The notes beneath the pieces are model-generated. The model was not told the DNA's origin, made no database searches, and saw only the letters and a program-made list of their open reading frames with translations. DNA of 64,000 nucleotides from contig ML977039.1 of the NCBI GenBank assembly GCA_010015675.1, forward strand, positions 85,808 to 149,807. Direction: 5' to 3'. Made by a program: the position numbers and the translations under genes. The stretch comes from Byssothecium circinans. Lineage: Eukaryota > Ascomycota > Dothideomycetes > Pleosporales > Massarinaceae. Numbering within the stretch: the stretch's first letter is position 1; each line of letters begins with the position of its first letter. Below are positions 9,312 to 9,480 of the stretch, piece by piece.

Positions 9312-9318
9312 TCCTCCG

Positions 9319-9330
9319 TGGCGCAATTGG
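9319..9330 (+). promoter_or_regulatory. Pol III A box of the tRNA gene
   Basis: TGGCGCAATTGG matches the A-box consensus at the T8-D-loop position. Confidence 0.85.
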
Positions 9331-9349
9331 CTAGCGCGTCTGACTGTTA

Positions 9350-9366
9350 CTCGTCCGCAGAGAGCA
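9350..9366 (+). other. Canonical tRNA intron (anticodon loop, 37/38)
   Basis: 17 nt between A37 and A38. Removal leaves the 7-nt loop CTGTTAA with the GTT anticodon. The position is that cut by the tRNA splicing endonuclease. Confidence 0.85.
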
Positions 9367-9381
9367 ATCAGGAGGTTCGTG

Positions 9382-9434
9382 GTACGTATTCATCAGGAGT
9401 TTCAAATTCACAGCGCCGACTAACAGTCCCTTAG
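9382..9434 (+). other. Spliceosomal-type intron embedded in the tRNA T-stem
   Basis: A 53-nt segment with donor GTACGT, branch-site match GACTAAC (9418-9424) with its A 11 nt from the 3' end, and acceptor TTAG. This is the same length and signal set as the mRNA introns in this window. Excision precisely restores a perfect 5-bp T-stem and the T-loop. The edges are ambiguous by one base on either side because of flanking G residues, but only this phase gives GT...AG. Confidence 0.8.
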
Positions 9435-9444
9435 GTTCGAGCCC
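9434..9444 (+). promoter_or_regulatory. Pol III B box of the tRNA gene
   Basis: GGTTCGAGCCC matches the B-box consensus. It survives the insertion because the last G of the insert replaces the G that the insert displaced. The A-to-B spacing is enlarged by the two insertions to about 100 bp. Confidence 0.85.
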
Positions 9445-9466
9445 ACGCGGGGGAGTCAGGCGTTTC

Positions 9467-9480
9467 TTTTTGGGTTTTTT
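9467..9480 (+). terminator. Pol III terminator T-runs
   Basis: T5 at 9467-9471 and T6 at 9475-9480, starting 12 nt after the tRNA 3' end. Confidence 0.75.

Follow-up and report, generated by a model that had tools for sequence, protein, structure and literature searches.

A tRNA-Asn(GUU) gene with two introns lies in the window, that is, the whole stretch of 64,000 nt analyzed here, which corresponds to C63:85808-149807 in a genome of 48.4 Mb assembled in 109 contigs. The cloverleaf was read by hand, and the parts of the gene are arranged as follows (positions are those of the window):

9312..9455, plus strand: whole tRNA-Asn(GUU) gene (exons and two introns), called as a tRNA by ARAGORN after insert removal, although misnamed Ala
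9312..9349, plus strand: exon 1 (acceptor 5' strand, D-arm, 5' strand of the anticodon stem, and loop to A37), identical in the C7 copy
9319..9330, plus strand: A box TGGCGCAATTGG (regex match)
9350..9366, plus strand: ordinary anticodon-loop (37/38) intron of 17 nt, in which the pair between base 32 and intron position -3 is formed (pairing test)
9367..9381, plus strand: exon 2 (A38, 3' strand of the anticodon stem, variable loop, and T-stem bases 49-52), identical in the C7 copy
9382..9434, plus strand: spliceosomal-type intron of 53 nt, GTACGT...TTAG, between T-stem bases 52 and 53 (signal tests)
9420..9424, plus strand: branch-site motif CTAAC (within GACTAAC), ending 10 nt before the intron end
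9434..9444, plus strand: B box GGTTCGAGCCC (regex match), whose first G is the last intron base
9435..9455, plus strand: exon 3 (T-stem base 53, T-loop, 3' strands of the T-stem and acceptor, and discriminator G), identical in the C7 copy
9467..9471, plus strand: T5 run, a candidate Pol III terminator, with a T6 run next at 9475-9480

On direct reading, the description of this gene in the original prediction, with a 17-nt anticodon-loop intron and a 53-nt insert at 9382-9434, proved correct to the base, and the GTACGT donor, GACTAAC branch site, and TTAG acceptor it had named are all present. Removal of the insert re-forms the T-stem CGTGG/CCACG around the loop TTCGAGC, as had been proposed. 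The A box, B box, and T-run are likewise in place, and the B box is intact in the DNA despite the insert because the last base of the intron supplies its first G. Neither ARAGORN nor Rfam (at its gathering threshold) found a tRNA at this locus in the unspliced window; in the ARAGORN call obtained after insert removal, the anticodon intron is misplaced. Protein-coding sequence of the window assigns the genome to Pleosporales (Dothideomycetes), with an identity of 94% to Pleomassaria siparia for an Rpn3 exon and of 58% to Massarina eburnea for a DUF6594 protein.

A count of other tRNA-Asn genes, one of the checks suggested earlier, gave one more copy, at C7:490035-490167, in which a 52-nt insert (GTATGT..GCTAAC..TTAG) occupies the same site and the anticodon intron is different. 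A genome-wide search with the Asn anticodon-arm pattern (up to one mismatch) returned four places, of which two are the Asn genes and two are not tRNA genes, and BLAST with joined exons returned, for Asn, only the C63 and C7 genes; no uninterrupted Asn gene was found by either kind of search. The exon bases of the two copies are identical (74/74), while their flanks have diverged and their inserts match at 35 of 47 aligned bases. The two inserts probably share ancestry, since this match exceeds the maximum of 34 obtained in 200 shuffles. The earlier interpretation of a spliceosomal-type intron in a Pol III gene therefore stands with respect to the signals and the Pol III boxes, but the idea that the insert arrived recently in this copy and is either spliced or silences it is not supported. 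Both Asn genes found carry the insert at the same site, and an insert present in every copy found of an essential tRNA cannot mark a silenced copy, provided that no intact copy is absent from the assembly or escaped the searches.

The search for further tRNA genes with GT...branch...AG inserts, which had also been recommended, raised the total to at least 14 genes, with inserts in the acceptor stem, D-loop, anticodon stem, and variable arm and at three points of the T-arm. None of the 14 is at 37/38, the position of the introns cut by the tRNA splicing endonuclease (Tsen). The reading covered all 50 tRNA-family matches plus the places given by further pattern and BLAST searches, and the base numbers of the insert sites, listed below by contig, were assigned by hand:

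T-stem 52/53: Asn (C63), Asn (C7), Lys-CUU (C4), Lys-CUU (C11), and His-GUG (C8)
T-loop 57/58: Lys-CUU (C24), Lys-UUU (C2), and Gln-CUG (C25)
T-stem 50/51: Thr-UGU (L047, C53:284035-284176)
Variable arm: Ser-GCU (C33)
D-loop: Arg-CCU (C23) and Thr-AGU (C63, about 24 kb outside the window)
Acceptor stem 4/5: Arg-ACG (C12)
Anticodon stem 29/30: initiator Met (L111, C16:963388 region, minus strand)

The inserts are 48-73 nt long and resemble one another in their ends and internal signals. They start with GT in 13 of 14 cases (GC in Arg-CCU) and always end with AG, and all but Arg-ACG (13 of 14) carry a CTRAY motif that stops 8-11 nt short of the intron end. Donor, branch, and AG occur together in 12 of 13 inserts compared with 0.00025 of 13 expected from shuffled inserts allowed the same boundary slide, under criteria (including the 8-11 nt range) that were fixed after the inserts had been seen. 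A strict GTRNGY-CTRAY-AG pattern fits inside 10 of the 14 interrupted genes, missing Lys C4, Lys C11, Arg-ACG, and Arg-CCU, and in none of 30 uninterrupted tRNA-family loci, which are a weak control at only 71-106 nt in length. Over the whole window and both strands, the same pattern gave 31 fits compared with 13-26 in five shuffles, corresponding to a chance of about 0.02 per gene. The same signals are seen in two mRNA introns of the window (46 and about 76 nt; GTATGT..CTGAC..TCAG and GTAGGT..CTGAC..GTAG), which were placed by hand at gaps in alignments to homologous proteins, two of four such gaps in two genes being resolved.

Removal of the inserts also restores recognition by tRNA-finding software. 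ARAGORN called a tRNA in all 14 genes after removal and gave the correct identity in 12, misnaming Asn C63 and Lys C24 because the anticodon intron was misplaced. When left unspliced, only 5 of the 14 were called, 2 of them with the correct identity, and the Rfam tRNA model scored 6 of the 13 genes submitted above its threshold. Such genes are thus missed or misnamed by tRNA finders, and spliceosomal tRNA introns may lie unseen in other fungal genomes.

The internal promoter elements are largely retained in the unspliced DNA. An A box was matched by regex in 12 of 13 genes, the exception being Arg-CCU, the gene that needs the GC donor, and was recognized by eye in initiator Met. For the B box, 10 of 13 genes gave a regex match, located in the exon or spanning the 3' splice site, and the B box of initiator Met, GGATCGAAACC, read by eye, falls outside the regex. 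In the five genes interrupted at 52/53, the final G of the intron replaces G52 and the DNA still reads GGTTCGA, and in Thr-AGU the first G of the D-loop intron completes the A box. An insertion at 57/58 cuts the B box, and all three introns at this site contain GTTCGA, although only the one in Lys-UUU provides a B box satisfying the strict regex, the other two being off at one end base. Among the 11 other introns, GTTCGA is found only in Thr-UGU, and 0.135 occurrences would be expected in 13 inserts. We read the intronic GTTCGA at 57/58 as a likely replacement promoter box; a remnant of local duplication is a possible alternative, because GTGGGTTCGA occurs in both the intron and the exon of Lys-UUU. 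In Thr-UGU, GTTCGATTCC is present in the intron even though the B box of this gene is not split, and the exonic B box is off consensus (GGTTCAATTCC). All 13 genes examined (Gln, with 6 nt of downstream sequence, was left out) are followed by a run of at least five T residues no more than 41 nt away, and in 10 of them the distance is no more than 16 nt. Avoidance of T-runs inside the introns, considered as a possible mark of Pol III transcription, was not significant, with one intron containing T4 compared with 2.8 expected (P 0.18).

For several tRNAs, every copy found is interrupted: both Asn genes, all four Lys genes, and the single genes for Thr-UGU, Ser-GCU, Arg-CCU, and initiator Met. The Lys search consisted of one exact 14-base pattern, which gave four places, all of them interrupted genes, and BLAST gave one gene each, interrupted, for Thr-UGU, Ser-GCU, and Arg-CCU. 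The anticodon-arm pattern for the initiator gave five places, none a tRNA gene, and missed the gene because the intron splits that pattern; a later initiator search gave six places, which on reading were one initiator Met gene, one uninterrupted Ala gene, and four that are not tRNA. A split T-loop pattern matched 24 places (59 for the reversed control), all of which were read and three of which are tRNA genes, and a query of twelve fungal tRNAs gave three places only. No uninterrupted gene for Asn, Lys, Thr-UGU, Ser-GCU, Arg-CCU, or initiator Met appeared in these genome pattern and BLAST searches, which are lower bounds: 63 of 1,497 first-look candidates were scored, two canonical tRNA genes absent from the first tRNA-family search were recovered by other searches, and an uninterrupted copy could have escaped. 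Since the only copies found of these essential tRNAs are interrupted, removal of the inserts must take place in the cell, provided that no intact copies were overlooked in the searches or lost from the assembly. This argument does not extend to Arg-ACG, Thr-AGU, Gln-CUG, and His-GUG, because uninterrupted genes exist for them (L018, L005, L012, and L003, respectively).

Two interrupted genes have uninterrupted paralogs that serve as empty sites for comparison. The exons of Arg-ACG on C11 are the same as those of the interrupted Arg-ACG on C12, and the exons of Thr-AGU on C4 equal those of the interrupted Thr-AGU on C63 except for the last base; in both pairs, the other differences are confined to the anticodon intron. 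Because uninterrupted paralogs have matching exons, the inserts are, by this comparison, exactly bounded and have been gained or lost over evolutionary time. A general invasion of Pol III genes was considered and rejected, as such introns were not seen in U6 or 5S genes: the full-length U6 match in the genome (region C14:277621-278945) has none, nor does any of 21 full-length 5S matches. Two shorter U6-like matches, one over and one under the family cut-off, lie within 1.4 kb of the full-length U6 match. A search for relatives in viral contigs gave no matches.

Taken together, the inserts are real and repeated within the genome, we consider them very probably spliceosomal, and we assign a probability of about 0.87 to the reading that they are U2-type spliceosomal introns in Pol III tRNA genes. 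It is also quite likely that such introns have repeatedly colonized tRNA genes where the promoter boxes stay or are supplied, and that essential tRNAs (the initiator, all Asn, and all Lys) are matured by the spliceosome on Pol III transcripts, often followed by Tsen on the same molecule. Under this proposal, the A and B boxes of the interrupted gene would direct Pol III transcription as far as a T-run, and where insertion would otherwise destroy the B box (T-loop 57/58), the intron would bring its own. The spliceosome would then remove the insert in the nucleus, restoring the T-arm, D-arm, variable arm, anticodon stem, or acceptor stem, after which the restored cloverleaf would be trimmed and the ordinary anticodon intron, where present, removed by Tsen and ligase. 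We infer from sequence the splicing, the spliceosome as its agent, the Pol III origin of the transcript, and the order of these steps.

Other explanations must be weighed against the same observations. The inserts could be ectopic tRNA introns that are excised by Tsen, with tRNA ligase joining the ends, like those of Cyanidioschyzon merolae, cryptophyte nucleomorphs, and archaea, where introns outside 37/38 are known in the D and T arms (parts of PMC4090602 and PMC9602550). Both tRNA-Asn genes do have an ordinary anticodon-loop intron as well, and a counterpart of the 32 : -3 pair is present by position in 6 of the 14 inserts (5 of 7 control anticodon introns have the pair). However, the four-pair helix of the bulge-helix-bulge motif is absent from all 14 inserts, which form 0-2 of the four pairs, although this test is weak because none of the seven control introns, with 1-3 pairs each, has all four. 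What counts for more is that the inserts share GT, CTRAY, and AG signals, which, to our knowledge, Tsen does not need. We regard an ectopic-intron origin as very improbable, and the inserts are probably not endonuclease introns.

No more credible is the idea that the interrupted genes are pseudogenes, with working copies elsewhere that were missed or are unassembled. When one of many synonymous eukaryotic tRNA genes has an insertion in its D or T arm, it is usually regarded as a pseudogene (according to part of PMC4090602), and this view could draw on the lower-bound nature of the tRNA searches, including the single pattern used for Lys. It is weakened by the contrast between exon and intron conservation and by the lack of intact copies in the searches: the Asn exons are identical while the introns and flanks diverge, the cloverleafs, terminators, and most promoter boxes are kept, and the sole initiator tRNA found is interrupted. 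An uninterrupted Asn copy would, moreover, outscore the interrupted ones in both Asn searches, and none appears. It is unlikely, if less so than either of these, that the introns are spliceosomal but the tRNAs are processed from RNA polymerase II transcripts, for example as lncRNA exons, with the spliceosome never encountering a Pol III transcript. In favor of this is the normal association of the spliceosome with Pol II transcripts; against it, the internal promoter boxes and T-run terminators are kept here, and the introns that break the B box carry their own GTTCGA.

Pol II transcripts are the usual substrates of the spliceosome, U6 is a Pol III transcript, and 18S rRNA is a Pol I transcript. 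Introns of nuclear tRNAs are assigned to the splicing endonuclease, whereas spliceosomal introns in small RNAs are associated with U6 and U3. We know of no route for making nuclear tRNAs that uses the spliceosome, and no earlier report of spliceosomal introns in nuclear tRNA genes was found among the full-text literature matches listed, judged by title and the start of the abstract, preprints and most subscription journals being outside the scope. One close parallel is offered by fungal U6 snRNA genes, in which spliceosomal introns have been described (Tani and Ohshima 1989 and Canzler et al. 2016, as cited in PMC5832005). As with the tRNA inserts, the host there is a small structured fungal RNA gene, but it is one gene, whereas here there are many tRNA hosts with internal promoter boxes and the full-length U6 match of this genome is intronless. 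Fungal U3 snoRNA likewise contains normal spliceosomal introns, 133 of 138 of them in the 5' half of U3, but is not a tRNA (part of PMC5832005). To judge by its title, Rogers et al. 1993 (via part of PMC11782384) described an mRNA-type intron in deuteromycete nuclear 18S rDNA, also a structural RNA gene of filamentous fungi; the host there is an rRNA and the transcript, as stated above, a Pol I transcript, unlike the tRNA genes here. C. merolae and the Guillardia theta nucleomorph also have D- and T-arm introns in eukaryotic tRNA genes, sometimes beside an anticodon intron. In the parts of PMC4090602 and PMC9602550 available, those of C. merolae are attributed to the splicing endonuclease and bulge-helix-bulge motifs, those of Guillardia are 3-24 nt long with the mechanism given as unknown, and their descriptions contain no GT-branch-AG signals, unlike the inserts here.

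If spliceosomal introns in Pol III tRNA genes are indeed present, two splicing systems would be joined in one tRNA precursor, and the spliceosome would be able to act on Pol III transcripts that are short and have very short exons. The activity of the spliceosome would in that case be a direct requirement for translation, and the genome would provide naturally occurring cases of intron gain or loss, together with paralogs that have empty sites.

Several minor observations were made while reading the tRNA genes. Ordinary anticodon-loop introns are present in many, although not all, of them (L005-L030 and others) and differ in length among copies with the same exons; the initiator Met gene apparently also has one of only 5 nt (ARAGORN), which is unusually short. 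The interrupted His-GUG gene (L043, C8:1072748-1072882) differs widely in its body from L003 and, by hand reading, has one anticodon-stem mismatch, and may be a divergent or decaying paralog. In addition, tRNA-like elements that are almost identical to one another, about 81 nt long (GGTGGGATGGCTCAGTGGTAGAGTGCTGCAGCC...), and conserved in their tail were seen at L037, L038, L042, L044, L049, L117, and L118 (on C22, C18, C13, C2, C20, C44, and C20, respectively), and these look like a tRNA-derived SINE family of the fungus.
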